From assembly GCA_019915015.1 (NCBI GenBank), contig JAHBBC010000023.1, positions 496,001 to 560,000 on the forward strand: a DNA stretch of 64,000 nt. Direction: 5' to 3'. The DNA is from Auriscalpium vulgare (lineage: Eukaryota; Basidiomycota; Agaricomycetes; Russulales; Auriscalpiaceae). Made by a program: the position numbers and the translations under genes. This document shows, in pieces, positions 1,479-58,946 of this stretch (its first letter is position 1; each line of letters starts with the position of its first letter). The notes under the pieces are model-generated. The model was not told where the DNA came from, did not search any database, and saw only the letters and a program-made list of their open reading frames with translations.

Positions 1479-4400
1479 ATGGCCTTCTTCTGCGACTCTT
1501 GTAATACGTCCTTCCCCACCCGATCCTACCTTGCGGGTCATTACAACCGTGTCCATCGGCACCCCAAGCCACCGCATCGTCAATCCAAAATTCGCTATCA
1601 CCCGGACTTGAACGGTATGCAACTTGAGCGTCGTCATCGAGCTTCCTCTGACTTTCCTTGTTGCAGCCCTCCCGTGTGACGAACATGGGAACTTCCTCCC
1701 ACCCGGATCCCCACCTCTCCCGCGCAATGTAGATCAGGATTGGGCACCGTTTGAGGACCGCCCGTCATTTGAGTTTGCGGAGCTCACATTCGAGAAGTCT
1801 CAGTCATCTCAAGGTGATATCAACCAGCTTTTGAAGATCTGGGCTGCGAAGGCCATTCTCCACGGGCACACCGGCGAGTTCTTCCCCGACAACGACGCTG
1901 TCAAGGCCGCAATCGACGACATAACAGTTGGTGTCGCATCGTGGCAATCATTCAAGGTCAGGTACACTGGCCCCACCACTCCCGACTCTCCGTCGTGGCA
2001 CCATGATGAGTACACTGTTCATACGCGCAATATACGCGCGGTCCTGCACAACATGGCTGCCAGCCCGGATTTCAACGGCAAATGGGAAACGCGTCCATAC
2101 CAAGAGTTCCGCAATGGTGAACGACACTTTACAAATCTCATGTCCGGTAACTGGGCGTATCGTCAGGCTGTACGTACCTTCCCACTGCCCTGGCTACCGT
2201 CTAATTTGAGATTGTCACCGCAGTCAACCGTCGCTGTGGACCCCGACACACATGGCGCGATGCTCGTGCCCGTTATTCTTGGGGCCGACAAAACCACAGT
2301 CTCGGTTGCAACAGGCAACACGGAGTTCCACCCGCTCTATGTATCACCCGGCAACGTCACCAATGAGTTGCGACGTGCGCATCGCGACGCCGTCCTCCCT
2401 GTCGCTTTCTTGGCTATTCCTAAAGGTCTGTGTTGTTGTCACTTTTCAATCCGCCGCTAAACTAATCTGTACTGTAGCCCCGCGAGAAGAAGAGAACACA
2501 GCCGGTTTTCGACTCTTCAAGAAGCAAGTTTACCACGCCTCCATTGCTCGCATACTTCGCCCGATCGAGCGTTATATGTCCCGGCCCGACATCGTGTACT
2601 GCTCAGACCGCCACTATCGACGCGCAATATACGAGATCGGACCATTCATTGCCGATTATCCAGAGCAAGTACTACTCGCAGGTATTGTACAGGATTGGTG
2701 TCCTAAGTACGTCGGGCCGATCAGTTGTACCTCGATACCATCTAACTATGTTGCTACCAGATGTCTGGGACACCCGGATGACCTCGACAGCATGGGTTCC
2801 CTTCGATTTCGGGAGCAGACAGAGCATCTACAAGCGACGTACGACGCCGAGACGCTCTGGGACGTTTTTGGTGTGGCTAGCGGTGTCACAGTACGTTATC
2901 GTATACCTGAATATCCGTCGGCGCCAGCTCATCTGGGTTTGTAGCCTTACACACATCGATTTCCTCGCGCCGACATCCATGAGCTTCTCACGCCAGATCT
3001 TTTACACCAAGTGATCAAAGGAACATTCAAGGACCATCTTGTCACATGGGTGCAAGAGTATGTCGAGCAAAAGAACGGCAGGAAGGAGGCTAAGCAAATC
3101 ATGGATGATATCGACCGCCGGTAAGTGCTTCACGACATCCTGGCGCAACATATTTGTTGACCGACGCATATCCAATTAGCATCGCAGCAGTCCCCGCATT
3201 TCCGGGCCTTCGCCGTTTCCCTCAAGGACGCAACTTCAAGCAATGGACAGGAGATGATTCCAAGGCTCTGATGAAGGTCCGTATCAATCTCCACAAGCAC
3301 ACACAAAACTCACGCCAGATGTACAGGTGTTTGTCCCAGCGATCGTGGGTCATGTCCCCGATCGCATGGTTCAGGCAATAGTCGCGTTCCTCGACTTCTG
3401 TTACCTGGCACGACGATCATCGCATACACCCACATCCCTCGCATCCATGGAAAGAGCCTTGGAACGGTTCCATGCTCACCGGGAGGTCTTTCGGGAGGAA
3501 GGCATCCGCCCGGACGGTTTCTCTCTACCACGTCAGCACGCGCTTACCCACTACGTTCGCGCAATCAAGTTATTTGGCTGCCCGTATGGGCTGTGCTCTT
3601 CAATCACCGAGTCAAAACACATTCACGCCGTCAAGAAGCCCTGGCGTCGTTCCAGCAAGCATCGCCCGCTGGCGCAAATACTTCTTACCAACGAGCGCAT
3701 GGACAAGCTGGCGGCGGCGCGTGTCGAATTCGGAGCACGCGGCATGATCAAGGGCGACGTTCTTACCGCAGCATACCATGAGATTGGTGTCGACCTTGAA
3801 GGAATATTCCAGGACGACGACGAGGATACCGAGCCAGAGGAAGCGGCAGGTAGAGATGGCGGCGGCGAGGGCGACGTAGGGGATGTTGATGACGAAGCCG
3901 AGCCGCTCACTGTGAAAATGGGGAGATGTGCAGGTACGTCTACTCGTGCTTAACATGAGATACACGCTCTGATGAGTTCCTGCCAGCTGAGACGTGCTCT
4001 GTTCCCGCCATGGCTGCAACAGTCGGACAACCTGCCCTTCTCTCCATAATCAGGCGCTTTCTGTACAGCCAGATGTACCCCGACGAAGATCTTCCCCCCG
4101 ACGCCGTGCCAATCGATGAATGTCCTCAATTTTGCGGCAATCTTTCAGTCTTCTACAATGCTCGAGCAACGTATTACGCGCCCAGCGAGCTCGCAGGTCC
4201 TGGAGGGATGCATAGCGAGGTCATACGGAGTAATCCGCATTGGTATCAGCAGTACGAGCGCCGCGATACTGTCCTGGTACAGCATGGCAGCGACCACGAT
4301 CTCATGGGAGGTCTCCTAGTGGCCCGAGTGGTTCGATTCGTGATGCTCACGCATCGCGATACAGACTTCCCTTGTCGAGTGGTTCCTTCCTGTCGGTGGC

Positions 4401-6817: not shown

Positions 6818-6822
6818 CTGCG
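6818..6822. repeat. copia target-site duplication, left copy
   Basis: CTGCG directly precedes the low-coordinate LTR. The same five bases follow the far LTR at 20941-20945. Confidence 0.85.
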
Positions 6823-7055
6823 TATCAATTGACAGACTGGTGCGGAGCAAGCAAGGTTAATTAGATACTCGAGACATGAGAATACAATGAAATAGAGAGC
6901 ATACCTGGTGCGGAGCAAGCAAGGTTAAAGGGGCTTGTGCTCCGCCCCAGGATCTAAGTAAGACTTCAGCCACACAGCCTCCGGCCCTCTGCCTCAGTCC
7001 CTACGACTCACGTCCCTACGACTCACGTCCCTACGACGCTAGTCATCCTTCGACA
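6823..7055 (-). repeat. copia 3' LTR
   Basis: A 233-bp LTR matching the rejoined 5' LTR by eye. It contains two copies of TGGTGCGGAGCAAGCAAGG and three tandem CCCTACGACTCACGT-like units. On the minus strand a purine tract (AAGGGGGGG, 7056-7064) directly precedes it. The pol stop codon (7039-7041) lies inside the LTR. Confidence 0.9.
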
Positions 7056-12020: not shown

Positions 12021-12034
12021 TATCAATTGACAGA
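12021..12034 (-). repeat. copia 5' LTR, inner fragment
   Basis: These 14 bases (TATCAATTGACAGA) equal the first 14 of the intact LTR at 6823. The LTR then stops abruptly at the Plavaka terminus and resumes at 20722. Confidence 0.9.
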
Positions 12035-12077
12035 CATCAGGAAAACCGCCCGCGCGGTCAAGAGAAGTAACGAACGA

Positions 12078-12226
12078 CAAGCGCTCTCAAGAGCTCTCAA
12101 GCGCTTGGCGTGTCTCGAGAGTCGCGTCAAGAGCGCATCATTGACAGCGCGTATTTGTGCCCTCTTGAGTGCTCTTGAGTGCTCTCGAGCCAGCTCATAG
12201 CAGCTCATATGATAATGAGGAGTGTA
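12078..12226. repeat. left subterminal block, copy 1
   Basis: This block, rich in CTCAAG/CTTGAG and ending ATGATAATGAGGAGTGTAC, recurs at 12694-12941. Here the 10-bp unit GAGTGCTCTT (or a CTC-ended variant) is present only about twice. A second CATCAGGAAAA follows at 12233. Confidence 0.85.
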
Positions 12227-12306
12227 CGTACATCAGGAAAAACTCATATCCCTGTAGTATGTGAGGGCTATACATATGGCTACGTCGTTGTCCCCTGACA
12301 CTCACA

Positions 12307-12503
12307 TGTTGCCGTCGCCATGACCAAATATGGCCATAGGCAACAAACGCTCGCGCACGGACCTTCGGGGGATTACGGCCATCGAGGTAGCGCACTTTCG
12401 AAAGTGCGCTACCTCAATGGCTGTAAAGTTCCGAAGGTCCGTGCGCTGGCGTTTGTTGCCGTGGCCACAACCATATATGGTGATGACGACGGCAACAAAC
12501 GAC
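12307..12503. repeat. long near-perfect palindrome
   Basis: Inverted arms of about 95 nt meet at TTCGAA (12397-12402). The inner 70 nt match closely, including AGCGCACTTTCGAAAGTGCGCT and GGTCCGTGCGC blocks. The outer part repeats GTTGCCGTCG..ATATGG with more mismatches. Transcribed from either strand it would fold into a strong hairpin. It may be two head-to-head copies of a short repeat. Confidence 0.85.
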
Positions 12504-12517
12504 GCGAAATCCCATCT

Positions 12518-12696
12518 TCATCACGCCGCCTCCGGGCCTTCTTGCAGCAGCTCAGGCTGGTTAATTGTTCCGTTCAGACATTCCCTTCGAGCTAATCTTT
12601 TAAAGATCGTGATCAACCTATCATCCTCGTAGCTTATTTCGGTGTTGATAATTTCGTCGTGCTGTCATTTCTACCATCCCCACTCTCTTTCTGAGC
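12518..12696. repeat. direct repeat A (179 bp)
   Basis: This segment is repeated at 20150-20323 in the same orientation with only a handful of differences. It begins TCATCACGCCGCCTCCGGGC and ends near CCACTCTCTTTCTGAGC. The two copies bracket the three transposon genes. Confidence 0.9.
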
Positions 12697-12941
12697 GCTC
12701 TCAAGAGCTCTCAAGCGCTTAGCGTGTCTCGAGAGTCGCGTCAAGAGCGCATCATTGACAGCGCGTATTTGTGCCGTCTTGAGTGCTCTTGAGTGCTCTT
12801 GAGTGCTCTTGAGTGCTCTTGAGTGCTCTTGAGTGCTCTTGAGTGCTCTTGAGTGCTCTTGAGTGCTCTTGAGTGCTCTTGAGTGCTCTTGAGTGCTCTC
12901 GAGCCAGCTGATATCAGCTCATATGATAATGAGGAGTGTAC
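12694..12941. repeat. left subterminal block, copy 2, with expanded 10-bp minisatellite
   Basis: Nearly the same sequence as 12078-12226, but the unit GAGTGCTCTT is expanded to about 12 tandem copies (12781-12900). Each unit boundary forms a CTTGAG motif, so the expansion multiplies the candidate transposase-binding motif. Confidence 0.9.
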
Positions 12942-13127
12942 ACCATGCCGCGAGGGAAGCGGAGGGTACTTAGCAGCACAGCGCAAGGCTTTGTATGGGA
13001 TATAAAATCTGGGATACGGGAGATAAAATCTGGGATCGTGCTGAGCGCCTCACAGATAATATCTCCCGACACATGAGAAGCAACTGTTTGTACTGCGGGT
13101 TAAATAACGAGCTACTAGTAGAACTCC
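12942..13127. other. spacer inside the transposon, no gene
   Basis: Short AT-rich spacer with a roughly duplicated GGGATATAAAATCTGGGATACGGG-type block near 12998-13040. Nothing coding is supported. Confidence 0.4.
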
Positions 13128-13842
13128 CTACACCTCTTCACTGGCCCATCTAACGGGCGATAGGCCGTCACTGATGTAGTCCTCCGTGTCGATGTCAGAC
13201 TGATCGTCAGAACTGTCTTCGAGGTCCTCAGTATGCGGCGTTTCGACTGATTTGGAAAAGCCGGGCTTGTAGCGCTGCAAGCTCTGTCAGGTGGCGAGCA
13301 CAATATACACCACAAGTGACTCACCTTGTACGGATCAGAGAACATCCCAACGTCGACTCCGAGACCGCTGGCCCGCACTTGGTAGCGCGCCTGCCCAACT
13401 GTGAGCTCCGCCCGCGAAAGCTGCGTGGATGCCTGGATGGCCGCGGCTTCGTACAAGGCGACTTTCATGCGGGCTTGAGTGAGCTTCAACTGAGTGAAGT
13501 TGTTCTCCGCAAGGCAGAGATCCCGCGTAGCGCGGGCGATGTCGAGAGCAATTTGGGCATCATCTGCGGTGCGAAAGACCCTTTTCGTCTACAATGGCAG
13601 ACCTGTCAGCAACAGGTTAAGACAGAGATAAGCAGTGTACTTACCAAACGCCCACTGACAGGAAACTCCCTCTCTGAGAGGACATCCAACAGCGCACTCC
13701 TCGACGATCGGACATATGGTGTGCGTTGCGTGCGAATGGCGCCCCGGTGAGTACGAGCAGGGCGCAGTTTGAAGGGGGTAGCGTCCTGCGGCGGCGTCGG
13801 CTGCTGAGCAGCGGGTGGTGGAGTGAGCTCAGGGTGGTCCAT
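13128..13842 (-). CDS. Plavaka cargo protein, divergent from the transposase, unknown function
   Basis: Three exons on the minus strand. Exon 1 (start 13842) gives a proline-rich N-terminus (MDHPELTPPPAAQQPTPPQD) and a basic stretch ending GRLV. A GT..AG intron near 13590-13645 leads to a helical, Ala/Leu/Arg-rich exon (ALDIARATRDLCLAENN, ARMKVALYEAAAIQA). After a second intron near 13282-13324 comes an acidic tail (EDLEDSSDDQSDIDTEDY) ending WASEEV at 13128. The product is about 200 residues, could form a coiled coil, and has no enzyme motif. It lies head-to-head with the transposase, 156 bp apart. It is probably a transposon accessory or DNA-binding partner; this is inference from position only. 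Confidence 0.65.
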
Positions 13843-13998
13843 GCTGAGGGTAGATCGGCGGAAGGCAGGCTGTCATAGGAGGCTGGGGCCTGGTGGTAGA
13901 AGAGACGACTCGGAAGCAAGCCAACTAGTAAGCGCTGGTGACACGCGTTCGTCGCGCGTTGACTTGACTGTAAGTACACGTCTACCACCACGCGCACA

Positions 13999-16900
13999 AT
14001 GGGCTCTCAATATCTCCCCCTGGCCGCTCGTCGCAAGAAGCGTCTTCTGTCCACGACGCCCACGCGTGGTCGTTGCATGGTCGCATGTCCAAGCTGTCGC
14101 CGATTATTCGCCAGTCAAACTTGCCTGTCGCTTCACATGAGCCATCGGTTCTCGAAGTGCGCCGGCTGGATTCCGGCCCAGATTGCCTCTGTTACTCTGC
14201 AGCAACAAGGACAGGACGCGTCGCGTGAATCAGTTCCGCTTGACCCCGACTTTGGCATGGCACTTGGGACACTGGACGACACTTACGACTGTAACATTGG
14301 ACCCGATCCTCTCCTCGCACACCCATCGATACCAACCCCTCCCAGCTCCAACACAACCTCCGTGTCGTCTTCTGCACCCGCTCCCAGTTCCGAATACCAT
14401 CCCAATTGCCCTCAAACATGCGGACGCGGGCAAACATTCATCGACAATTTCAACAACGATTGCTTCTCCGACGAGCGCGCTACAAATCATTTCTACCCCT
14501 TCTCGTGCAAGTCGGACTGGGAGCTGGCTTCATTCCTTGCCAGGTCAGCACTCAGTAATGAAGAGATCAATGCTTTCCTGCGATTACCTATTGTATGTAT
14601 ACTGAATTGTCCGTCTCGCAAGTCTATGCTGATCTCCTTGTGTAAACAGATCTTGAATCTTTCCATATCCTTCCGAACGGCCAAGCAGCTTCGCGGCAAG
14701 ATTGAGCTCTTGCCGGGCGGGCCCGTATGGAGATCACAGACTGTCGTGATCGAAGGGTTTCCAACGAAGCAGCCTATCAAGCTCTTCTTTCGCGACAGTC
14801 TAGAGTGCCTGGAGTATCTGTTTGGAAACCCTCTATTTGCTGGCCACATGGATTTGCAACCGAAGCGCCTGTACACAACAGCAGAGCGTGCGGTTCGCGT
14901 ATTCAGCGAGTGGATGACCGGTGACTACGCCTGGCAGGTGCAGGTACGTCTGACGTTGTTTGTATTATCCGCGTGGCTGATTTGGTCAACCCAGAGCGCA
15001 ATTCCGGATGGTGCTACTGTTGTTGGGGCCGTTCTTTCGTCGGACAAGACCAATTTGACGTCGGGCACTGGGAATCGCGTCGCACACCCCCTCCTCTTAT
15101 CGCTCGCTAATTTGCATATGGATTTCCGTATGAAATCATCTCGCAATGCCATCATGCTCGTTGCCCTACTGCCGTGTCCCCGTTTTCTATGTCCGAAGAA
15201 ATTCCACGGTGTCCTCGATAGCCGGGTTGCCCACTACTGCCTCGACATTATCTGCAAACCGTTGAAGGCCGCCGCGAGAGCTGGCCGCATGATGGCCGAT
15301 CCCCTCGGCTACAGCCGCTTCTGCTTCACGCCCCTTGCTGCCTACATTGTCGACAACCCCAAAGCCCAAATGCTGGCCTGCGTGGGCGGCAAGAGCTCAC
15401 CTGTCACCACCGCAATGCACAAGCAGTTCGGTGACGCGTATCAGCACGAGCCACGCACGGCTTCAGTGACGCTTGCGCAGCTTCAGGCACTCCTTCACTC
15501 ATCGCCGGACCCTTGGGACCTTCCGAAATATGTCACGGATGCGAAATCGCGTCGCCTCAACGGGGTGCATCAGCCGTTCTGGGCTGATTGGCCTCTTTCG
15601 GATCCATCAAATTTCCTGACACCGGAGCCGCTTCATCAGTGGCACAAGCAGTGCTGGGATCACGATGTGCGCTGGTGCCGGAATATCTTAGGCGACAACG
15701 AGATCGACTTTCGCTTCTCCGTGCTTCCACCTCGTGTTGGTTTTCGACGTTTTCGGGAGGGTATATCACAGCTCAAACAGGTGACGGGCCGCGAACACCG
15801 TGACATTCAGCGCTACCTCGTTGCATGCATCGCTGGTGGCACGGATCCATTATTCGTGACTTGCATCCGTGCGCTCATGGATTTCCGGTATCTCGCCCAG
15901 TCTCCGGAAATTGATGAACACACCTTTGCGCGGGCGCAGGCTTCTCTTGCCGAGTTCCATCAGCACAAGCAGGTGATCCTTGATGTTCGTGCTCGCCTCG
16001 GGAAAGGTGGCAAGACCTTGGACAACTGGCACATCCCCAAGCTCGAGCTCATGCAGAGTGTCGCCCCTAGCATCCGGCGGATGGGCGCTCCTATACAGTG
16101 GACTGCCGATGTCACCGAGCGCAGTCATATTACGCTCGTCAAGGATCCATTCCGTGCTAGTAATCGTCGGGATTTCGACTCGCAGATATGTCGGCACTTG
16201 GATCGTGACGAGAAGTGCCGCGCCTTTGACACAGCATTGTCAATTCTCTCGTCACCGCATCTCGACGCACCTCCAAATAACACTGGCCATGATGATCCCA
16301 TTGAAGATGTCGATGTTGATGCGGACGTGCCTGGCTGCGGACGCCGTAATCGAACAGCCGTTCGGGATTTCTTTGCGGAGTCTCGCACATGCACACCATC
16401 CACGCGCACGTTTTGCACGTCATCCACTGCATTCCACCTGACCTCTGACCCGTCACTGGAGAATGTTCCTGTTGACACGGCCGCGGCGATGTTTCACCTC
16501 GACGACTTGCGTCCTGCGCTTGCTGACTACATTGCACGAGGTCGCGCCAGTACCGATGCACCGAATATCCGCACGATTGGTGGGCGAAGGACTGCACAAG
16601 CTGGCATTGCCCTGCCTTTCCACGCTCTGGACATCTGGTATAGTGTGCGCGTTCAAACACGATCGTTCTATGGCAACAAGGGTGCATTGCCTTCTCAGAA
16701 CATATTTGCTGCGCCTCCGTCGCCGTCTTGGACCTACGGACGGCGCGACAACGCTCTTGTGATCCAAGATTCGTCGGTTGCCTGGCCGGGGTGTGGGATC
16801 ACAGGTGCGTAACATCCATATGTTGATTTCCCAAATTGACGGCTTTGTTTGTAGGCCACGTTGTTTCACAGCTCTGCGTGATCTTTCGGCCCGTGCTCGC

Positions 16901-17216
16901 TGGCTCCGACTCTCCATACCTCGTATACATGCGCCGCTTCGACATTACACTACAAGCTCAGTCAGCGGGGTCTCCACCGACACTCGGGCCTGATCGAGCA
17001 ACAGGGATGTACGTCTTGAAGCGGGCTATCCGTTCAGATAATTCGCAGATCGGCGATGTCATTCCACTTTCGCAAATTCGGCTGCCGATCCACCTCGTTC
17101 CACGCTTTGGCGAAAAGGCCGACTCTCGGTTGACCGCAGAGAACAGCATGGCACTGAGTTATGACTTTTATTTGAATAAGTACTTTGACAAGGAGACATT
17201 CGCCACTGTGTTTTAA
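13999..17216 (+). CDS. Plavaka-family transposase 2, apparently intact
   Basis: The first ATG gives a C2H2-like finger (CPSCRRLFASQTCLSLHMSH). The body carries long conserved blocks: DWELASFLARSALS, GAVLSSDKTNLTSGTGNRVAHPLLLSLANLH, HGVLDSRVAHYCLDIICKPL, DPLGYSRFCFTPLAAYIVD, LHQWHKQCWDHDVRW, GREHRDIQRYLVACIAG, WTADVTERSHITLVKDP and QICRHLDRDEKCRAFD. Two in-frame introns of 57 nt (14593-14649) and 51 nt (from 14944) and a third near 16804-16853 lead to the last exon ending YDFYLNKYFDKETFATVF. The VLSSDKT...TGN and VTERSHI blocks parallel the ILGADKTTVSVATGN and SITESKHI blocks of transposase 1, so both belong to one superfamily but different lineages. No stop or frame break is seen. The length of about 1,000 residues suits an autonomous element. 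Confidence 0.85.
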
Positions 17217-17554
17217 TTACCTACTAGTTATCTGCAGAATAAACGTGTTATTGGCGTGTTAGCTCGCGTGTGAAATTCGAGATACTGTAGTACAAGCGCG
17301 CGGGCCATGCAGCATCAGAGCATGCCACGTCTCACGAGTACAATCGAGTCGGACGATTTCGTGCTCGACCTACCATTGCCTGTCCTCCAAGTCGAACGTA
17401 TAAATTCATCTGCTATCAGCTCAAACATGGTCAGTCTAGTCACCCTCTCCTTTTTCCTTCTCTCATTCTTCTACCGCGCTGTGCTGTCGCCGTTATTGTC
17501 GGTTGACCTGGAGTGATACCTCCTTGCCATCCTTCAAGTTCACCACGGTTAGAA
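17217..17554. promoter_or_regulatory. promoter region of the DUF6532 gene
   Basis: Spacer between transposase stop and next start. A good TATA box (TATAAAT, 17399-17405) lies about 155 bp upstream of the ATG at 17555. A 69-codon open frame at 17307 has no supporting feature. Confidence 0.45.
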
Positions 17555-20092
17555 ATGGCCCGTGGCAGATCAAAGCCAACGGCTGCACGGCAGAGTGAGT
17601 ACTAGCTTGACTCAACACCGTGAAATTTTGCTTATTGTTTCCTTGTTATAGCCCCCGCAAAGGCAGCTCCCAAACGCCCCGTTCGATCCACTCGTGGCTT
17701 AGGCGGCGCTGCTGTGCAGCTTGAGAAAGCTGGCGAGGCAGTCACGCAGGCTCCGCCGAAGCGTGGTCGAGAGCTGTTCCAGTCAACGACACCTTCACAA
17801 GCTTCTGGCCAGCAGCCTGTTGCTGCCAGCGTTAACCCCATGGCACCAGTCGCTCGAGCTCCTGTTCGTGCTCGTAGAGTTGTATGTGATATAACAAACT
17901 CACCCATACGGATAACTTACTGATCTTTAGCAGAAGCCTGCCCAAGCTGTTCCGAACGCGGCTGCACCTCCTCCAGCTCAGGCCTTTCTGACTGCGACTG
18001 CACCTCCTTCCGCCAATTTGGCCGTCCCAAACGCAGCTGCACCCACTTTCACTTTCCCGACTGCACCTCCTCCCGCCAATTTGACCGTCCCGAACGCAGC
18101 TGCACCCACTTTCACTTTCCCGTCTTTTGAATCCGACTTTGCGTACCCTGCTCAGCAACAGCTCGATCCCCGTTTTGGCTTCCATGGTGCGCCTCAGCCG
18201 CAGCCCATCCCTGACGTGTTCATTCCGGCTCCTCCCATTTCCGGTGCCAGCATGCCTTCCTATAACCCGTACTATCCGTCTATTGATCCTACGTTGACGG
18301 CCGCCTTGGCCCACGTTCCTCATGCCGTCTCTACTCCTCACCATTCGCCTGCCTCCGTCACTGCTTCCTTCGTCCCTGCCGGCCTGCCAACCATTCCGGC
18401 AAAGCGGTATGCCCCAACGCAGGATGCGGCAGACAGCGGATCAGAGTTTGATACCGGCGAAGTTGATGCGGACGAAGGCGAAGATGCAGTGGAAGACGAC
18501 AACGCAGGCTACGTGGGTGACGGCAACGATGACGAGCCTGCCAGTGATGCGGACGTAGTCAACGGTGCGCTGAATGACCAGACCCGCACGAACAGTGAGC
18601 TGACTAGTTTGATTTACAAGGATCTGTGCCTGCGCAGCAGCAGTACAGTGCAACTGCTGCCGCCAATGGAAGTTATTCTGTTCCCGGACTCCATCGCGAC
18701 GACGACGTCACGCGCGGTGCTATCAAACGCCTCAGGGTAAGTAACCGCTGCACACATTTTTGTGATTCAAGATAGGTGACAATGGATATCCCTGACCGCA
18801 GACTCACTCCCAGCCAACGGATATCCTGGCCGAACACTGGGCAAAGAACCGCGCCCCGAAGGCCCCAACGCCTGCCGCCCTTCGTGCGTCGCAAGAGGGT
18901 CTCGTGCCGGGACATCATGGCCACCAACGTGCGGTCTCTGACAGCACCGCAACCCATAAGCGACAGCGGCGGTCTCGGGCAGAGGTTCGTGCGGATTCGT
19001 CCGGAAAGGGTCACACCATGGCCGATCTTGACGAACCATGGCAATCTGTTGTCCGTCTTGCAAAAACGTACTACGACTTCAACCTTATCACGAAGAACTT
19101 CATGCCAGATCTTGAAAGCTCGATGACAAGTGCGACTGAGGCGGTCTATGAAGCTCTGGCTGTTCACGCCCAGAACACCGGAGTTCAGCTCGTCCGAGAC
19201 GGTGAGTGACGTATCGGATGCCGCGCCAACACATTCTGACGCATGTGCGACCCCACACATAGATCAGGAGGTGGACATCGAAGTCGTTCGTATGGTACGT
19301 ACAATAGATTTGTTTCGCCATCTGGGCTGCATTGACCGCGCATATAGGTACACAGGGACAGCACTACTTTTCGCGCCTCCTTGAAGGCCCACATCACGGG
19401 CTTGGTCACCGCCATCGTCCTCAACTCTTCCGAACAAGGAGAAGTTGATCCGACCATGTCGCCGTGCGATCGTGTGCAGCTGGTCATACGTGGTCTGCTC
19501 TCCCAGGGCAAGTTCCTGCACGATCATCAAGCCAACGTACGTGTCTTAATGTCGTGGTTCCTGACTGTCATTGATCTTGTTCAAGGGGACAAAAATCTAT
19601 TTCGGAAGCACATTGCTCCGTGACGCTTGCATCCAGGCGCTTTTCAATAACAACAACGGACTCGCACACCTGTTCCCTGCCGCGTTCGACAAAGGGATCC
19701 CTCCTCGAGGCATTGCTGCGGTAGGAGCAATTGTAAGTTGTCCTCGACGCGATTGTTATCTGCCAGCTCACCGCGTGACCATCACAGCTCAGGAATTGCC
19801 TGGATGAGTACAAGGACAAGGGCTACAGAATCTCGAAATCATTCACATTACAGGACTACCAGGAGGTCTACGTCACTCTACTCCAGAACATCGAGGAGAA
19901 GGTTCTCCATAGTGACAAGCATGGCCCGCCCTTCGTCGTCATGCAGAAAGATTGGGTCAAGCTTGGCAGGTATGGTGATTGATCACTGTGATGTCCCGAC
20001 GTTGGCTGATCTGAGTCTCCAGGCTTCGAACGAAGCCGGAATACAAAGACAGTGACGACGCACAAGACCTCGATTTTGGCGTCGACATTTGA
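17555..20092 (+). CDS. DUF6532-domain protein carried by the Plavaka transposon
   Basis: Multi-exon gene. The N-terminus is basic (MARGRSKPTAARQ, KAAPKRPVRSTRG). A Pro/Ala-rich linker follows with a tandem repeat (ANLxVPNAAAPTFTFP, 17950-18125), then an acidic segment around 18460-18560. The C-terminal half matches the DUF6532 pattern as I know it: a helical lead (PWQSVVRLAKTYYDFNLITK), TLLRDACIQALFNN, LFPAAFDKGIPPRGIAAVGAI and DYQEVYVTLLQNIEEKV, ending DSDDAQDLDFGVDI. About nine GT..AG introns are needed, including 18597-18640. DUF6532 proteins are abundant in mushrooms and have no known role. This copy sits inside the transposon and reads intact, so it is cargo or a second mobility protein. 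Confidence 0.75.
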
Positions 20093-20149
20093 TAAGGACA
20101 GCATATCGCGCTCATTCTACTCGCAAGACTCTTACCCCTCGACAACTAC

Positions 20150-20323
20150 TCATCACGCCGCCTCCGGGCCTTCTTGCAGCAGGCTGGTTAATTGTTCCGT
20201 TCAGACATTCCCTTCGAGCTAATCTTTTAATGATCGTGATCAACCTATCATCCTCGTAGCTTATTTCGGTGTTGATAATTTCGTCGTCCTGTCATTTCTA
20301 CCATCCCCACTCCCTTTCCGAGC
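20150..20323. repeat. direct repeat B (174 bp)
   Basis: Same-strand copy of 12518-12696, differing by a small deletion (GCTCAG) and a few substitutions. It starts 57 bp after the DUF6532 stop, so it may be that gene's 3' untranslated region, later duplicated to the left end. Confidence 0.9.
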
Positions 20324-20476
20324 TTCGGTCCTTACTCTCGGGTCCCCGGTGGTGTGCCGGTGGTACCCATGATATATGCACTCGTTTCGCGCTCGTTTAG
20401 CGTATCCATGATAAGCCCGAGGTGAATTTCAGCAAGAAATAAACAAATTAGTTATCTAAGATAACAATGATAACAA

Positions 20477-20548
20477 GGCTGTGTGCTTGAGATCGGCTGT
20501 GTGCTTGAGATCGGCTGTGTGCTTGAGATCGGCTGCGTGCTTGAGATC
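20477..20548. repeat. 18-bp tandem repeat with CTTGAG motif
   Basis: Four tandem copies of GGCTGTGTGCTTGAGATC, the last with one change. They form the inner edge of the right subterminal zone. Confidence 0.9.
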
Positions 20549-20719
20549 GCTTGGGAGCAAACGAAGCGGTTGCGAGCCGAACGCTTGAGCCTGCTTGAGG
20601 GTGCTCGAGAGCATGACTCAAGCGCTTGAGCCGTCTCTCAAGACACCCTACTCCTTGACCGCGCTTGAGCTCTTGAGGCGCTCTCAAGGGGCCTCAAGCA
20701 GCTGCCGGGTTTCCTGATG
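20549..20719. repeat. right subterminal zone and terminus of Plavaka 2
   Basis: CTTGAG/CTCAAG occurs about every 10-25 bp in both orientations up to the terminal GGTTTCCTGATG. This mirrors the left end and supports one transposase acting at both. Confidence 0.8.
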
Positions 20720-20721
20720 GA

Positions 20722-20940
20722 CTGGTGCGGAGCAAGCAAGGTTAATTAGATACTCGAGACATGAGAATACAATGAAATAGAGAGCATACCTGGTGCGGAG
20801 CAAGCAAGGTTAAAGGGGCTTGTGCTCCGCCCCAGGATCTAAGTAAGACTTCAGCCACACAGCCTCCGGCCCTCTGCCTCAGTCCCTACGACTCACGTCC
20901 CTACGACTCACGTCCCTACGACGCTAGTCATCCTTCGACA
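20722..20940 (-). repeat. copia 5' LTR, outer fragment
   Basis: These 219 bases continue the LTR from its 15th base and match 6837-7055 without visible difference. Followed by the target duplication CTGCG at 20941-20945. Confidence 0.9.
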
Positions 20941-20945
20941 CTGCG

Positions 20946-21376
20946 GCACGCAGGCAGAATGTTCAATGAAGCTTTGAGTAGGATCAGTGCCGCACGAAAA
21001 GTTAGACGAATGCGATGCACGACAAGTGGGTCACGGTGGTGAGCAACACTGGTGGCAAGTGGCAGCTATGCGAGCGTGGGACACCTCGGTCGGCCGACGC
21101 AGGCCGACGTGCATGCCGCCTGCGGCTGCTGCTTCCCAATATCTTGCTGTGACTTGAAAAGACTTACACCCCTTATCGGCCAATGCCAACGTTGTTTTGA
21201 ATGTTGTAGCGTTAGAAGTGACATGACGCTCTCCAGAGAGCGCCGTCGAGGCCACTGAACGAAGCCATGCAAAGAAAAACGTTGGTTGCAGCCGCAAGGT
21301 GCGTTTCCTTCCTCAACGCTATATTCCTGGAAGCCTGAGTGTATTGATTCTGCATCGGCCAGATCTTTACACCACC
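20946..21376. other. upstream region of the first HAMP gene
   Basis: Original chromosomal DNA beyond the copia element. No gene is supported. It presumably holds the promoter of the gene starting at 21377. Confidence 0.35.
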
Positions 21377-22543
21377 ATGTCCACGACCTCTCAGTCCGAC
21401 CCTCCGACCCCCCTAGAGGCTCACCTCCTCGCGGTGCTGGCCCTCTATGAACACGGGCCCATCCCCGAATCCATCCCGGTCTACATCGGCCCCGCCTCTT
21501 CCCAAGCCACCGAGATCTTGCGCGCAATCGATGCCATCGCACGCCGCACGCCGCCCGCCGGCACCACTGCACCAACTACAGCTCCCGAAGACCTTCAGCA
21601 TGCGGCCCCGCCCCCGCCTTCGCAAGCGGAAGAGCAGCTTGCGCTAATGAAGGCGCAGGTTCGGGATGTCGCCCTCGTGTGCAACGAGATTTCGTGCGGA
21701 AACCTGAGCCAGCGCACGACAGCACCCGCGCAGTTCTTGGAGATGGTAGAGCTCAAGTACGTGGTCAACAGGATGGCGGACAACCTAGAGTCCTTCGTGT
21801 CGGTGATGATGGGCGTGGCAGAGGCGGCAGGAGACAATGGGTGCGTTTTACTGGTCACTGCACACTTCGCATGAGTGCCGCTGCTTACGGGTACATGTGA
21901 TGAGATCACTCGGCGGGCTCTGGGGATTCCATACGGCAATGGACGGCAGCTGGTATGCCCTGTCGAACGCGGTGAATAGACTCTCCGTAGCGCTCACCAA
22001 CGAGGTGCGCGCGGTTGCGCGCGTCGCGGCCGCCGTCGCCGGCGGCGACCTATCGCAGCAGATCGACCATGATGCGCGGGGAGAGGTGGTGGACATGCAT
22101 GCTTCTGTGAACGCGATGGTCGAGCTGCTGCGCGCGGTCGCTTCTGATTCGGTGAGGTTGGCCGGGGAGTATGGGTGGGAGGGGCGGGTCGGGGGGCAGA
22201 TGCAAGTGCAGGCGGCGCAGGGGGTTTGGGCGGAGATGGTGAAAGAGTTGAATTCTGTGACAGCCTACGTGAGTATTTACCCGTGTTCTTTTTTGGGGGC
22301 TTTTCTGACAGACTCTACTTAGTACACTGTCTTGATGCGCGAGCTCATCAGGGTCACGGTACGTCAGATTGTCCGCGTACACGGCGATCATACGAGCAAA
22401 TCATTTTTGTGCAGACGGAACTGTCAGAGGGAAAGACCACCGAAACGATCACGGTCAACGAAGCATCGGGGGACGTACTGGAACTTGTTACCGCAGTGAA
22501 TCAACTTGTTAACAGACTCGCGGCGTCTCCGCCGGGTGCGTAG
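21377..22543 (+). CDS. HAMP-repeat protein 1, truncated Nik1-type kinase relative
   Basis: The N-terminus (LEAHLLAVLALYEHGPIPES, then GPASSQATEILRAIDAIARR) matches the start of basidiomycete group III hybrid histidine kinases (Nik1/Os-1 type). HAMP-like repeats follow: VCNEISCGNLSQRTT..VVNRMADNL; NAVNRLSVALTNEVRAVA..VAGGDLSQQID with VNAMVELLRAVASDSVRLA and GQMQVQAAQGVW; then ELSEGKTTETITV..VTAVNQLVNRL. Introns lie near 21841-21904, 22269-22321 and 22359-22414. The frame stops at 22543 after about three HAMP units. There is no HisKA, HATPase or receiver domain, which in true Nik1 proteins follow five or more HAMP units. It may dimerise with, and modulate, the full osmosensing kinase, or be a decaying duplicate; the sequence does not decide. 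Confidence 0.75.
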
Positions 22544-22914
22544 GGTATGTCAGTCTTGTCCGGTGTTATGCCAGTCGACGTGTTTCAGATCATACCTTGG
22601 GAGGGACATCAGGCTGAGTGAATGACCAGAAGTGCCCGAAAACGATGAAGTGCTCTATCTCTTTACGTCCACCGCGGTCTGGGTCGTTCACTCTGGGTCG
22701 CAAGATTCGAAATGCCCCTTCGTCGAAGACCTTGGAAGATTCTTTGACTCATACCCACTGAAAGAGGCGAAGTTGTCCATCTAGAGTACGACCGCCGTCG
22801 CCTCGAGGTGTGCTTTTCTTGTTTCCGTTCATGTGGTCAATCTCTTGAACTATCGTGGCCATCGGATAAAAGCCCTTCCCAGAGTCGCCTCCATCGACGT
22901 CCTTTCTCCCCACC
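22544..22914. other. spacer between HAMP genes
   Basis: The first 130 bp resemble the sequence after the second HAMP gene (shared AGTGCCC..GA.GAAGTGCT blocks, near 22629-22655 and 24165-24192). So the duplication covered the 3' flank, or a further unrecognised exon lies there. Confidence 0.4.
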
Positions 22915-24079
22915 ATGTCCACGACCGCGCAGACCAACACACCGAGCCCCCTCGAGACGCACCTCGTTGCGGTGCTGGCTGTCTACGAACATGGGCCTAT
23001 TCCTAAGTCCATCCCACCCTACACTGGACCCGCCTCTCCCGAAGTCACTGAGATCCTGCGCGCCATCGACACCATCGCGCGCCGCACGCAGCCCGCCGTC
23101 ACGACTGCTCTCACCACCTCCGCTCCAGGTCAAGAAGGCGGGATCCCCCTCCAGTCTGCCGCGCCGCTCTCAGAGGCGGCAGAGGAGCTCCAGCTGTTGA
23201 CGGCGCAGGTTCAGGACGTCGCCCGCGTGTGCACCGCAATCACGGAGGGCGACTTGAGCCAGCGCATGACGGTGCCCGTGCAGGGCGGGGCGACTGAGAC
23301 GGTCAAGGACGTAGTCAACAATATGGCGGACCGACTCGCCTCCTTCGCGAAGTCGACGCTGCGCGTGACGCTCGATGCCAACAATGGGTATGTCCGTGGG
23401 TCACTGTATGCTTAGCACATGTGCTGACTTTGCGTAGGGCGCTTGGCGGCGTCGGGCTCTCGTTCGATCTCAACGGCGTCTGGCGGGAGCTGTCGGACTC
23501 GGTCAACAGCCTCTCTGCTCTGCTTACGAGCGAAGTGCGCTTGGGCGCGCAGGTTTCCGCGGCCATCATTCGTGGCGACCTATCGCGGCAGATGACTCTC
23601 GATGTGCCGCAGGGGGAGATTCTCGACAGGCATGCCTCTGTGAACGCGGTGGTCGAGCTGCTGCGCACGATTACGGCCAATACGGTGAGGCTGGCTGAGG
23701 GTTTCACGCGGGGGCAGGTCGGCGGGCAGATGCAAGTGCAGGCGGTGCAGGGGGTCTGGGCGGAGACGGTGAAAGCGTTGGATACGGTGACAGCCTACGT
23801 GAGGATCTAGTCGGGCTCTTTTTCTCTTTGGGCTGTTCTGACAGAGATTCAACTCTAGTACACCGTCTTGGTGCGCGAGCTCATCAGGGTCACGGTAAGT
23901 CGGATTATCCTATTGTGCGGCGATCATATTGACACTTTATATTTCCTTCGCAGACGGAATTGTCAAAGGGAAAGATCACCAAAAAGATTAAGGTCGACGA
24001 CACGTCTGGAGACCTGCTGGAGCTTGTCACCGCCGTGAACCAACTCGTCGACAAAGTCGGTGTCCGCGTCTGCTGCTAG
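22915..24079 (+). CDS. HAMP-repeat protein 2, tandem paralogue
   Basis: Same layout as its neighbour: LETHLVAVLAVYEHGPIPKS, GPASPEVTEILRAIDTIARR, then HAMP units VCTAITEGDLSQRMTVPVQG..VVNNMADRLASFAKS, VSAAIIRGDLSRQMTLDV..VNAVVELLRTITANTVRLA, GQMQVQAVQGVWAE, and ELSKGKITKKIKVDD..VTAVNQLVDKV. Introns near 23389-23436, 23801-23858 and 23895-23953 sit at the same sites as in paralogue 1. It stops at 24079 without kinase or receiver domains. It keeps more canonical HAMP spacing than paralogue 1 (GDLSQRMTV), so it is probably the less diverged copy. It was produced by tandem duplication, since intron positions are shared. Confidence 0.75.
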
Positions 24080-24306
24080 GGTATGTCGGCCAGTCGTGCC
24101 CGGTATCATTTGAGTTGACGTACTCCAGATCGTAAAGGGCATAAGGCTTAGCGAATGATAAAAAGTGCCCAACGAGGACGAAGTGCTTCATTTGTACGCG
24201 AAGGTATCGAGACATATCAATGAAAGCTTGGATTTGTGTCTTTCTCATTTCATGATTCCTACGATCTCTTCCGCCACTAAAACTATTCCGCGGTGGGAGC
24301 CACCTG

Positions 24307-44543: not shown

Positions 44544-45259
44544 GACCGTACTAAACCGCATATCCGCACGTAACAGTATCATTGTACATACACACCCGCG
44601 TTTCACTTCAACAGTGCCGCAGTAATGACAGTTATATGAGCCCCTCTCTCATAAAAAAAAGCGAGAACCTTAAGAAGAGTACGCACCGCTGCTCACGCCC
44701 GGACGTAAGTCAAGCGGACTACACGCAGACTCAGGAAAACCTCACGGTCGGGGGACCACAGGGAAAAAAACCGGACCGTAAAAATCGTGAACTGCCCACA
44801 TACACTGACCGCGTGCGGGACAGGAAAGCGGAACACGAGCTCACCCTGTTGACTGGCAAAGAGCCAAAAGAACACGGAGACCTATTCAGGTCGTGGACCA
44901 GCCGTGCCGAGAGGCTCAAGTCGAAGAAGTACTGCCTACGGTAGCCGAGGGACCGCAGGCAAGGAAAATCGACATACGTCCACCCGCGTCGGCCGGGTCA
45001 CGCCGAACACGCCCGCGAATAGTCGTACGCGGAGCGTCTGAGTCCGACTGCTGCACAATCTTCACATTTTTCTGTCAATACCGGGTTTTTGTCGTCGAAC
45101 GGTCAGTACCTCTCCGGAAGCGGAGGGAGGTCGTCCATAGCCGCCGGGACACCCCCAGATGATGCGACCGGAGCGAGCGCAGGTGGATATGCAACACCAG
45201 CATCACAGGCGAACTACGCCCAGGAGGCCCAACAGCCCTCATCCCCGAACAACCGGGAA
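44544..45259 (+). other. spacer between LINE ORFs
   Basis: About 0.7 kb. A 120-codon open frame (44582-44944) and an in-frame 5' extension of ORF2 back to 45089 without an ATG are present. ORF2 may therefore start at the ATG at 45260 or be reached by another mechanism, such as reinitiation. Confidence 0.4.
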
Positions 45260-47401
45260 ATGACACAAGGAGAAATACCGCACACGCCAGAACCAGAGCA
45301 ATCGCGAACCCCACCGCAGCCGCGACGGGAGGCGCGCACAGGCAAAAAATTTAAAGCCAACATGAAACTAGCCTCCCAAAACATGAACGGGCGCACCTTC
45401 CGCACAAAAAAGGGGGCGGTACAGAGCCGTTGGCCAGAGATCGCAAGAGCGATCAGAGAACATAAAATAGGAATTCTCGCCCTACAAGAAACGCACCTCG
45501 CTGAAAGCGAAACGAACGACCTGAGACGCCGCTACGACAAAAAGATGGTGATAATGAACTCCCCACTCCCGGAAAACCCAACAGGATCGGCAGGAGTAGG
45601 CTTTGTCCTAAACAAAGCAATGATTAAAACGGACCAATGTACCCTGATTGAACTCATACCGGGCAGAGCTGCCCTCCTCACAATCAAATGGAATGCAGAA
45701 CAGACACTGAATATACTCAACATCTATGCCCCGAACCACGCAAACGAACACCCGGACTTCTGGAAACGACTCGATGAGGAGCTGGTAGAGCATGGAATCC
45801 ACCACATCGATTACAAACTAGGAGATATGAATCTCGTCGAAGACGCGCTTGATCGAGCCCCTCAACACGCGGACGACGAAAATGCCGTAGAAGCTCTCCG
45901 AGACTTCAGGCATAAATACGGCCTACGGGACGCCTGGAGAGAGGCCTTCCCCAGAACAAGAGCATTCACGTACCGACATAACCGAGGCATGATAAAATCA
46001 AGGCTTGACAGAATATACGTCGCAGGGCAACATATACCGCACACGTACGAATGGTCCTTCAGCCCCAAAGCGATACCCTCAGATCACGACATGATCTCAG
46101 TGAGACACACTTCGGACCAAGCGCCTGAAATAGGAGAAGGGCGATGGACCTGGCCCCTCCATCTCGTAAACGACAAAGCCCTGCTAGAAGAAGTCATCAG
46201 CACGGGCATGAGATATGCGGAAAAAATACATGCACCTGACCTGGACCGCGAGGAAGCCACCCCACAAAAACTATGGGCGCAGCTCAAAATGATAATCATA
46301 ACAAAAGCCAAAGCAGCAGGCAAGAAGGCAAAGAGCCGTATCCAAAATAAAATCGACTCGCTCCAGAAAGGAAGACGCCAACTCACGAGGCAGAAAGAGT
46401 TCGACACAGACGAAGATCTCCGGATGACTGAGTCCCTAATAGTGGAAGAAATCGATCACCTGCAACAGAAGCAACGCTCCACAGCACAAAGGGCGACACA
46501 GGCCCGATGGCAAGTCAAGACCGAACAAATAGGCAAATACTGGTCGGTATCGAATAAAGAAGCAAAGCCCAGAGATATAATCTGCCGCCTCAGGAAGCCA
46601 GAGACACAGGGCGACCGAGGTAACCAGGCCCCAGGACTAAGAAGAGCGGAACCGGCGCCCAGTTATGAAACCAGATCAACCGAGATGGCCCAGATCGCCG
46701 CAAGGTACCATAAGGAACTGCAGAATGCGCCCTCGGAACGACAGCAAACAGACGAACAAGCGCGGTTAAATGAGGACGCGGTCATAAACTCCATCCCCCC
46801 GGAACAGCAACTACCGAACCCAGAAACCTCCGCATTGAAAGGACTAGTATCCTACGGAGACGTCCTGGAAGCACTGAAGAAGTCGAAATCCGGCTCCGCC
46901 ACAGGACTTGATGGATGCCCCTATGAGCTCTGGAAAAAGCTCCATGAAATCCACATAGAACGAGAAAAGAACGACAAACCTAGCTTCGACGTGGTAGGCA
47001 CGCTCACAACGGTCTTCCAAGACATCCAAAGCCACGGGGTCGACCCGGCATCTGACTTTGCTGAGGGATGGATGTGCCCGATCTATAAGAAAGGGGAACG
47101 CGCGGACATCGCAAATTATCGCCCTATTACGCTCCTGAATACGGACTACAAAATGCTCACCAAAGCCCTGGCAATCAATCTCGGCCGAGAAGTGAGTCCG
47201 ATGGTGCACAAAGACCAGGCCGGTTTTGTACCGGGACGCTCGATCTTCAACCACATTAGGTTAGCCCAAACCATGATACACTATGCGGAAGCAGAAAGTC
47301 AGAACGGCGCAATTGTGGCGCTCGATCAGGAGAAAGCGTACGACAAAATCAAACATGAATACCTCTGGAAGGTCCTCGAGAAATTCCGGCTACCAGAAAC
47401 T
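45260..47401 (+). pseudogene. LINE ORF2, 5' part: endonuclease and first half of RT
   Basis: Encodes an apurinic-type endonuclease (SQNMNG, ILALQETHL, SAGVGFVLNK, NIYAPN, YKLGDMNLV, SRLDRIYV, SDHDMI), a coiled linker, and the RT start (KSGSATGLDGCPYELWK, GWMCPIYKKGERADIANYRP, LLNTDYKMLTKALA, DQAGFVPGRSI, LDQEKAYDKIKHEYLW). The frame ends soon after the insertion point at 47401 (stop at 47408-47410). Up to that point it is open. Residues usual for the endonuclease and for RT motifs 1 to A are present, so it looks functional before the insertion. Confidence 0.85.
47397..47401. repeat. target-site duplication AAACT, left copy
   Basis: Matches 60261-60265 across the large insertion. Confidence 0.8.
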
Positions 47402-48289
47402 AGCTCTTAGAGAGCCATTGCTGAACATGGCGGTACGATTCCTGAAATTCTTCAGGTATACAAGGCAAGTGCAGGCAGCCATGAGGCCCGCATACCCCTA
47501 TCACAAACTGACCGTCCTCTGCCACAAGATCAGCCACGGATGATAGGTTGCCCCCGAGTCCCGGAGACGACAGCTCTCTATGGGTAGGCAACTTGACTGG
47601 GCATCGGCACATCAAAGACAGAGCATATTGAATGGCCGGCGGGTGCAGTTGGAGCCCCAGTCATGTGAGTAGGGACGTGCAGCCTGCCGCCACTGCACAT
47701 TCAGACTCGAACTTCGGACGGATGACGGGCAGGGGCAGAAACACCAGTGCAGAGTGATATAAGTATCTCAACAGAAATGTACGTTTGAAATGAGTTACAC
47801 ACGAGCAATGGCAAACACGACAAACAAAAAAAAACAGACCCAGATCGCAATCCCTACGCTCGTAGCGCTTGTGGGATGAGCATGGCGCCAGTGTGCAGCA
47901 CCGGGCAGGCGGCTGGAATGAATGACGGCACCGGGATTGTCATGGTGTAGGCGCGGTGGCCGGGTGTGTGCGTGAATGATGTTCGTACGCTGTGTGTCGT
48001 CATGCCCATCGTGCGTTACCATCGCTCTCGTGCTTGCATTCTGAATCCAAGCCAGAATCGTACACTGAGACCCTTTGCCAGTGTACATTGTCGACACAGG
48101 GTGTGCCGTACACGCCGCTGACTATTTTTCTTTCAGACCGCTGCCCGCCGTTGGCGGTTGAAGAGCTGCGCTGTCGCTCTGCGCGTCCCAAGGCTGTCAT
48201 TGTAGTCAGGGGTCAGTCCTGTGCTCGCCATATATGTGTGTGGCTCACCTTGTATTAAATTCCCAGCCGCCTTCATGTCAAAGCCACCA
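47402..48289. other. left end of the fragment-bearing insertion, nothing recognised
   Basis: No supported coding sequence. An A-run (47827-47835) is present. It may contain non-coding ends of the element. Confidence 0.35.
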
Positions 48290-50041: not shown

Positions 50042-51219
50042 TGATGACCTATCTCGGCGCACAGGCGGTCAGATGGCAAAACAAACCACAAAACCAACTC
50101 CTGCTGGCTCGAGCGGTGCTAGTAACAGGTTGGGGGCGCGTCCCAGGACCTACAGATGACTCGGGGAGAGGCGTGAACGCTGGGGGGAAGTCGCTAGGTG
50201 ACTTGGAGGGCGATAGGACAATGGACAAGGTGATCTGGGATGGAAGTCGACACTGCTGGTGCGGAACAGGACGTTGCGATGTGTAGCGAGCTTGAGAATA
50301 CCTTGCTGGAGGGCTGAGACGATGGGGGAACAAAGGCGAGGACGAGGGGACAAGGGGACAAGGTGATACGAAGGTCGCGACGTAACACGATAACGCTGGA
50401 CGAGGTGAAAACAATGTGCTCTGCGAAGTTGAAGGCTTGTAAACGTGGGCTCTGCGAAGGTGAAGGCTATAATCTTGGGCGCTGCGAAGTTGAAGGTCGA
50501 GGTCGATGTTGAACGCGATAAAACGATGTTGCAAAGGTTTGAGACGTTGACTCTGGAGGGGAGAAGTTGTCTGATATTCAGTGGCCTAGCTACCAACAGA
50601 TATACACGGGAAACATGGATCTGTGGCTACTGTGAGTCATCTGGTAAGTATGGGGATAGTGAGACATTCTAGAAGGCGTATCCAATCAGAAACAAGCATC
50701 GCGACGTATCGGAACAGCAAGGCTGTGCTATCTCCATGTGAAACTCCGAGATATGCGGATCGCGACGTATCGGAAACCATCAAACCGGAACATTGCTCTG
50801 AGACACTGCATCTAGACCGGACCCTGGGACCTGTGGGTGACGTGTCGAGGGGCTGCGCAACGCTAGGACGCTCTGGGAACGAGGTGGGAGGCGAGTGCAA
50901 CATGTGTAGAGCTGAGGGCAACAAGGGGATGTATGCGCGAGACATTGCGACGTGCGCACAGAATGCTAATGGCTGGCTCAGAATGTCTTGGTGACTTGGG
51001 GGGCGTGTACACATGACTTGGGGACTTGTGCAATCGTCCTGCGTGGCCTGGATGGTAGAGAATCGATGGAGACGTCAAGGAGTATAGGCCTGTGTTGCTA
51101 CAAGTGTGCTAGCGTCTTGGCTGGAACTGCGAGCGCGATGTGTTGCGATAGTCGATGTTGAGGCAATAGAACGTGCCAAAAATGCGAAAACAGAAGCCAC
51201 CCGCGCTGGGGGCGTATCA
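50042..51219 (-). repeat. gypsy 3' LTR
   Basis: 1,178 bp. On the minus strand it follows the purine tract AGTAAGGAGGAGG (51220-51232). It contains three related TCTGCGAAG(G/T)TGAAGG-type units near 50426-50500 and repeated CGACGTATCGGAA. Confidence 0.95.
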
Positions 51220-51467
51220 CCTCCTCCTTACTGAAGATCTGACCGTCCTCGGTCAGCGCGTGCGTTGAATACGGGTCGGCAAAGGAGTGCTGGGGGCTGC
51301 GGTGGGTGGGAACGAAAGGATACAGAAATGGAAGAGTGAAGCATATAGCGAACTTGAATGTCCCTTCTTGGTCTCTGTAAATGGCATGGGCAAAAGGGAA
51401 ACAAAACTTAAACAAACACAAGGGAAACCATGTGTAGCATGCTGGAAAGAGAAACAAAACAAAGGAG

Positions 51468-57789: not shown

Positions 57790-58946
57790 AGGCGGTCAGA
57801 TGGCAAAACAAACCACAAAACCAACTCCTGCTGGCTCGAGCGGTGCTAGTAACAGGTTGGGGGCGCGTCCCAGGACCTACAGATGACTCGGGGAGAGGCG
57901 TGAACGCTGGGGGGAAGTCGCTAGGTGACTTGGAGGGCGATAGGACAATGGACAAGGTGATCTGGGATGGAAGTCGACACTGCTGGTGCGGAACAGGACG
58001 TTGCGATGTGTAGCGAGCTTGAGAATACCTTGCTGGAGGGCTGAGACGATGGGGGAACAAAGGCGAGGACGAGGGGACAAGGGGACAAGGTGATACGAAG
58101 GTCGCGACGTAACACGATAACGCTGGACGAGGTGAAAACAATGTGCTCTGCGAAGTTGAAGGCTTGTAAACGTGGGCTCTGCGAAGGTGAAGGCTATAAT
58201 CTTGGGCGCTGCGAAGTTGAAGGTCGAGGTCGATGTTGAACGCGATAAAACGATGTTGCAAAGGTTTGAGACGTTGACTCTGGAGGGGAGAAGTTGTCTG
58301 ATATTCAGTGGCCTAGCTACCAACAGATATACACGGGAAACATGGATCTGTGGCTACTGTGAGTCATCTGGTAAGTATGGGGATAGTGAGACATTCTAGA
58401 AGGCGTATCCAATCAGAAACAAGCATCGCGACGTATCGGAACAGCAAGGCTGTGCTATCTCCATGTGAAACTCCGAGATATGCGGATCGCGACGTATCGG
58501 AAACCATCAAACCGGAACATTGCTCTGAGACACTGCATCTAGACCGGACCCTGGGACCTGTGGGTGACGTGTCGAGGGGCTGCGCAACGCTAGGACGCTC
58601 TGGGAACGAGGTGGGAGGCGAGTGCAACATGTGTAGAGCTGAGGGCAACAAGGGGATGTATGCGCGAGACATTGCGACGTGCGCACAGAATGCTAATGGC
58701 TGGCTCAGAATGTCTTGGTGACTTGGGGGGCGTGTACACATGACTTGGGGACTTGTGCAATCGTCCTGCGTGGCCTGGATGGTAGAGAATCGATGGAGAC
58801 GTCAAGGAGTATAGGCCTGTGTTGCTACAAGTGTGCTAGCGTCTTGGCTGGAACTGCGAGCGCGATGTGTTGCGATAGTCGATGTTGAGGCAATAGAACG
58901 TGCCAAAAATGCGAAAACAGAAGCCACCCGCGCTGGGGGCGTATCA
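57769..58946 (-). repeat. gypsy 5' LTR
   Basis: 1,178 bp, matching 50042-51219 throughout by eye: every open frame in one copy recurs with the same residues in the other. It is flanked outward by GCGC, as is the partner. Confidence 0.95.

Follow-up and report, generated by a model that had tools for sequence, protein, structure and literature searches.

Within a 64,000-nucleotide window of the mushroom Auriscalpium vulgare (contig JAHBBC010000023.1 of assembly GCA_019915015.1, positions 496,001 to 560,000 of the forward strand), we find an element that is very probably a complete, recently inserted, gene-carrying Plavaka DNA transposon with PlavakaB-type ends, presumably moving by cut-and-paste. 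The surprising content of this element is its second gene, a predicted BAH-like tail on the RAG1-like core of its transposase, and a missing C(2)C motif.

The exact ends of the element were revealed by its insertion host, a minus-strand copia retrotransposon whose 5′ long terminal repeat (LTR) is cut after the 14th base (TATCAATTGACAGA) and resumes with GA duplicated. The preliminary description had reported this cut, an insert of 8,685 bp, an unbroken sequence in the other LTR and a 2-bp target duplication, and direct reading bore out each of these points (Table 1). The insert starts with CATCAGGAAAACCG and finishes with CGGGTTTCCTGATG, which form a short terminal inverted repeat agreeing at 13 of its first 14 bases; the intact LTR reads through the site, and all 222 further bases compared between the broken and the intact LTR are identical (222/222). 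The site was also uninterrupted, with 0–2 substitutions across the first 30 bases, in 9 of 9 other copia LTR loci (ten other places were listed, nine with loci, one of the nine being the window's own second LTR). As an independent control, the 5-bp duplication CTGCG of the copia element brackets the whole nest; because it stands on either side, both copia flanks belong to a single insertion. That the junctions arose by misassembly or chance is extremely improbable, as the same ends are found at other sites, and the copia LTR, the CTGCG duplication and the internal sequence are coherent on both sides.

Further copies with common ends and duplications, expected by the preliminary description, were found in the 51.6-Mb assembly (96 contigs), and none with different, longer ends was seen among them. 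At least the first 265 bases of the left end occur at six places, the window included, at 99–100% identity, and the five others start at the boundary or one or two bases outside it. Among the right-end matches listed, six outside the window stop exactly at the boundary, that of copy C31 extends two bases past it (GA again), that of one diverged C7 copy ends four bases before it, and a further insertion interrupts one C20 match; the right tip of the C20 copy is split off by an insertion with CTTGA flanks. Identical 2-bp flanks surround five of the six copies with both ends (binomial P ~5e-6): GA/GA in the window and C31, CT/CT in C1, CA/CA in C20 and TC/TC in the diverged C7 copy. This count leaves out C14, C11, C17, C8 and a third, truncated C7 copy, for each of which one end has been lost or was unavailable. 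Insertion solely into GA was ruled out by the duplications GA, GA, CT, CA and TC. Over ~8.6 kb, the C31 copy, whose complete structure matches that of the window element but at a different site, shows 10 substitutions relative to the window, along with two indels of a repeat unit and two of a single base. It is itself interrupted by a copia of 4,987 bp whose 290-bp LTRs are identical; movement is therefore recent. A megablast search of the element against plasmids gave no match.

The tip CATCAGGAAAACC occurs 14 times in the 51.6 Mb and once as a reversed control, some of the 14 belonging to other families. The repeats L060, L061, L062 and L065, which start with CATCAGGAAAACC and continue with TTCCCATGG or CTCCCATGC, are probably other PlavakaB-type families; their right ends were not found in the stretches examined. 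Separately, a second Plavaka family with the ends CATCAGGAAAC and GATTTCCTGATG (6,418 bp, TA/TA flanks) is nested in the C11 copy.

The transposase matches the Plavaka transposase profile PF18759 over its full length (E 9.9e-97) and PF20722/DUF6830 (E 4.7e-43), and its frame splices without a stop; the splice models of all genes are our own, built from GT..AG sites and open frames. Its four best named relatives of 120 listed, from Auriscalpium, Dentipellis and Heterobasidion, are 49–56% identical. Our transposase alignment (A2) held 35 of these 120 proteins (224 passed), and a scan of viral contigs with it found no relative. Plavaka is defined by the PF18759 domain in the excerpted text of PMC8290104, and section 3.2.2 of a paper by Kojima (PMC12730594), which appeared in December 2025, describes CATCA..TGATG termini with a 2–3-bp duplication for PlavakaB; our element has such termini and a 2-bp duplication (GA; 5/6 paired copies). 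The preliminary description had claimed a complete gene-carrying Plavaka transposon, which the PF18759 match and the common ends of other copies uphold, and had presented it as a full member of a poorly described family; its ends and duplication stand, but since they were already published for PlavakaB they are no discovery. An EnSpm/CACTA element would likewise fit the subterminal repeats, which are CACTA-like. This alternative is nevertheless most improbable, given termini of CATCA..TGATG with a 2-bp duplication rather than CAC..GTG with 3 bp, and the full-length PF18759 match, even with the relatedness of Plavaka and EnSpm transposases described in the available part of PMC12730594. Several observations weigh against our reading, among them these: another C7 copy has mismatched flanks, AG/TG (one of the six paired copies); the transposase start is uncertain, with a single-base indel near the first ATG between the window and C31; and the C(2)C motif, which is reported for the CMCT clade between the second D and the last E, is lacking, with C..C in 0 of the 24 alignment rows that have letters there (12 of 36 are gapped). 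At 1882–3052 the window also holds a second, older Plavaka transposase remnant, consisting of two PF18759 pieces, one with a stop.

The predicted model of a homolog 49% identical to the transposase gave 15 Foldseek matches at E <= 0.001, all of them to RAG1, the enzyme that cuts antibody genes. Candidates for the DDE catalytic residues are D313, D416 and E671. At the second position (D416) the 36 unpicked rows show 22 D, one N and 13 gaps; rows of other families were selected from the genome with a pattern that requires this D, which is present there by construction. Histidines after the second D are kept (H510 in 36/36, H513 in 33/36, H519 in 35/36), with a spacing other than an exact H(3-4)H. 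Among the seven stretches shown from other families in this genome, six have CPKC, CPCC or CPRC and one has CPKGC. The element is assigned to the CMCT clade by its predicted fold and candidate catalytic residues, not by the C(2)C motif.

Behind this RAG1-shaped core, the transposase is predicted to carry a tail shaped like chromatin-reading BAH domains. Each of the 50 entries listed for this region is a BAH-carrying protein, and together they span at least ten kinds; two models from two proteins agree, and the predicted local distance difference test score (pLDDT) is 87.8. Counting against a BAH identity, the match is structural only: the isolated domain reached a best Foldseek E of 0.011, with none <= 0.001; Pfam at E <= 1 returned DUF6830 alone in 16/16 members and no BAH profile (alignment A4, 16 of at least 30 pieces listed); and Protein Data Bank sequences at E <= 10 gave no match to the C-terminal region. 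A common beta-barrel arrangement, rather than a reader domain, could produce such a structural match; we regard this as unlikely, though it is the most serious of the alternatives weighed here, because the listed entries are uniformly BAH-carrying and the two models agree. DUF6830 is not named in the literature searched.

Near the ends, 31 of the 33 CTTGAG/CTCAAG sites of the element lie within its first 860 or last 240 bp, a count inflated, to the detriment of its weight, by a single 10-bp tandem array at 12777–12903 that holds 12 of the 18 left sites. A second CATCAGGAAA at 12231–12240, 196 bp inside the left end and just before the hairpin-like repeat, is also present in the other copies; it may be the remnant of a former terminus. 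Short gene-less copies (C1, 1,040 bp; C7, 888 bp; C20; and the C11 copy) consist of the outer parts joined at one 179-bp repeat, which is a mosaic of R5 and R3 in C1 and R5-like nearly throughout in C7 and C20; at least two deletions are therefore likely. The four short copies, with one repeat and no genes, and the block 12694–12941, which repeats the left subterminal region 12080–12227 at 97%, could instead be read as traces of a composite, in which a gene block that happened to lie between 179-bp repeats was taken up by a short gene-less element that supplied the outer ends, rather than a standard Plavaka. We consider this improbable: C31 has the same whole structure at a separate site with GA/GA flanks, and the mosaic repeat of C1 is as expected of deletion from the long form. 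Composite or not, the unit now moves as a whole.

Downstream of the transposase, on the same strand, lies a gene whose product matches PF20149 (DUF6532; E 8.6e-25); the third intron of its model is one choice among several. Exon-level matches in the genome were clustered at 3 kb, giving 48 DUF6532 clusters (the window's own exons set apart), 80 Plavaka, 90 copia RVT_2 and 49 Helitron clusters, the last two from 92 of 108 and 49 of 50 matches, with those omitted being further pieces beside included ones. Within 5, 10 and 20 kb of a Plavaka match, regions that make up 1.6, 3.0 and 5.6% of the genome, lay 28, 34 and 41 of the 48 DUF6532 clusters, 7, 10 and 13 of the 90 copia clusters, and 0, 3 and 5 of the 49 Helitron clusters. 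Fisher P at 10 kb was ~1e-12 against copia and ~1e-11 against Helitron, values to be read in the light of copies of one family not being independent; grouped by best score, 28 of 36 DUF6532 groups (an approximate grouping, made manually from the best bit scores) had a copy within 10 kb of Plavaka. The two genes were divergent in 30 of 34 cases and tandem in 4, two of the latter (C12, C19) being of the window's lineage. The measured ends of the nested C11 element enclose both genes. DUF6532 as a passenger or host gene, rather than a working Plavaka part, would account for the 7 of 48 clusters that either lie more than 20 kb away from any Plavaka match or sit on contigs lacking such a match, and the linkage evidence covers one genome, because no DUF6532 homologs were found in a large protein collection at E <= 0.001. 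The enrichment near Plavaka over copia and Helitron, the fixed divergent arrangement and the presence of DUF6532 inside the ends of two different Plavaka families make this explanation rather unlikely. In the literature searched, DUF6532/PF20149 is named solely in a domain list, in the part of PMC8955403 that was available. The small divergent gene upstream of the transposase encodes a protein with no Pfam match, and its relatives adjoin related transposases on C12, C19 and C35. Pfam searches of the three gene models gave no TET/JBP, and Rfam gave no match in the window.

These features allow us to propose how the element might move. The RAG1-like DDE core would cut at CATCAGG..CCTGATG, and the excised element would be joined to the target with a 2-bp stagger. 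The N-terminal Cys/His stretch of the transposase, the DUF6532 protein or both may recognise the CTTGAG arrays near the termini and bring the two ends together, a task performed in CACTA elements by TnpA, which recognises subterminal repeats. The BAH-like domain could dock the complex on chromatin, and short gene-less copies would result when the stretch between the 179-bp repeats is deleted, and would be mobilised in trans.

Elsewhere in the window, identical 1,178-bp direct repeats (50042–51219 and 57769–58946) around minus-strand RNase H and protease frames mark a young LTR retrotransposon. A long interspersed nuclear element (LINE)-like reverse transcriptase appears split, with the first part of RVT_1 and an endonuclease at 45089–47410 and the last part of RVT_1 and RNase H at 60437–63010; the LTR element (50042–58946) sits between these halves. 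To the right of the nest, a 1.3-kb direct duplication (21372–22654 and 22910–24187, 71% identity) holds frames that look like HAMP-repeat kinase pieces.

Table 1 Positions of the element, its genes and repeats, and its copia host in the window
Feature	Position	Strand	Basis
Whole Plavaka element, 8,685 bp	12035–20719	+	Sequence read directly; other copies
Left terminal inverted repeat, CATCAGGAAAACCG	12035–12048	+	Sequence read directly
Right terminal inverted repeat, CGGGTTTCCTGATG on + strand	20706–20719	-	Sequence read directly
Target duplication GA, left	12033–12034	n/a	LTR comparison
Target duplication GA, right	20720–20721	n/a	LTR comparison
Left CTTGAG/CTCAAG sites, 18	12086–12893	n/a	
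Hairpin-like inverted repeat inside left end, arms 81% identical	12307–12497	n/a	
Direct repeat R5, 179 bp	12518–12696	+	
Small divergent gene, 202 aa, two introns	13128–13842	-	Own gene model
Transposase gene, 1,019 aa, 3 introns (14593–14649, 14944–14994, 16805–16854), PF18759 and PF20722	13999–17216	+	
Part matching BAH-like C-terminal region of homolog model, includes intron 16805–16854	16423–17174	+	
DUF6532 gene, 656 aa, ten exons, 9 introns, PF20149	17555–20092	+	Own gene model
Direct repeat R3, 95% identical to R5	20150–20323	+	
Right CTTGAG/CTCAAG sites, 13	20486–20698	n/a	
copia 5′ LTR, first piece, 14 bases	12021–12034	-	
copia 5′ LTR, second piece	20720–20940	-	
copia 3′ LTR, unbroken empty-site copy	6823–7055	-	
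copia target duplication CTGCG, left	6818–6822	n/a	
copia target duplication CTGCG, right	20941–20945	n/a	

Taken further, and tentatively, Plavaka transposases may be RAG1-fold recombinases with a built-in chromatin reader, the BAH-like region with DUF6830, in parallel to the RAG1/RAG2 pairing of a recombinase with a PHD reader; DUF6532 may be an end-binding partner, and one widespread mushroom lineage may have lost the C(2)C portion of a zinc site thought universal in the clade. Should the BAH-like domain prove to bind histones, recombinases of the RAG fold would have acquired chromatin targeting on two or more occasions, via different domains. In Plavaka, an abundant but little-studied fungal group, we propose identities for two domains of hitherto unknown function: DUF6532 would be the product of the second gene of these elements, and the region of DUF6830 would be BAH-like. 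With both ends defined, a recent move behind it and its empty site present in the same host element, the transposon offers a clean start for a transposition assay.

Compared with known systems, the predicted BAH-like domain lies in the same chain as the core, unlike in RAG1, where the PHD reader belongs to a separate protein, RAG2; it has no detectable sequence similarity to the BAH domains of ORC1, BAHCC1, TNRC18 and DNMT1. The 2-bp duplication sets the element apart from Transib, in which it is 5 bp. CACTA/EnSpm elements share with it short inverted ends, dense short subterminal repeats and a second protein beside the transposase, but the termini and the 2-bp duplication differ, and DUF6532 takes the place of TnpA. 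Within the excerpted text of the PlavakaB paper (PMC12730594), in which the term BAH has 0 occurrences, PlavakaB has the same PF18759 transposase, CATCA..TGATG termini and 2-bp duplication; unlike PlavakaB as described there, our element is without the C(2)C motif and a TET/JBP gene, and carries a tandem DUF6532 gene and a small divergent gene.
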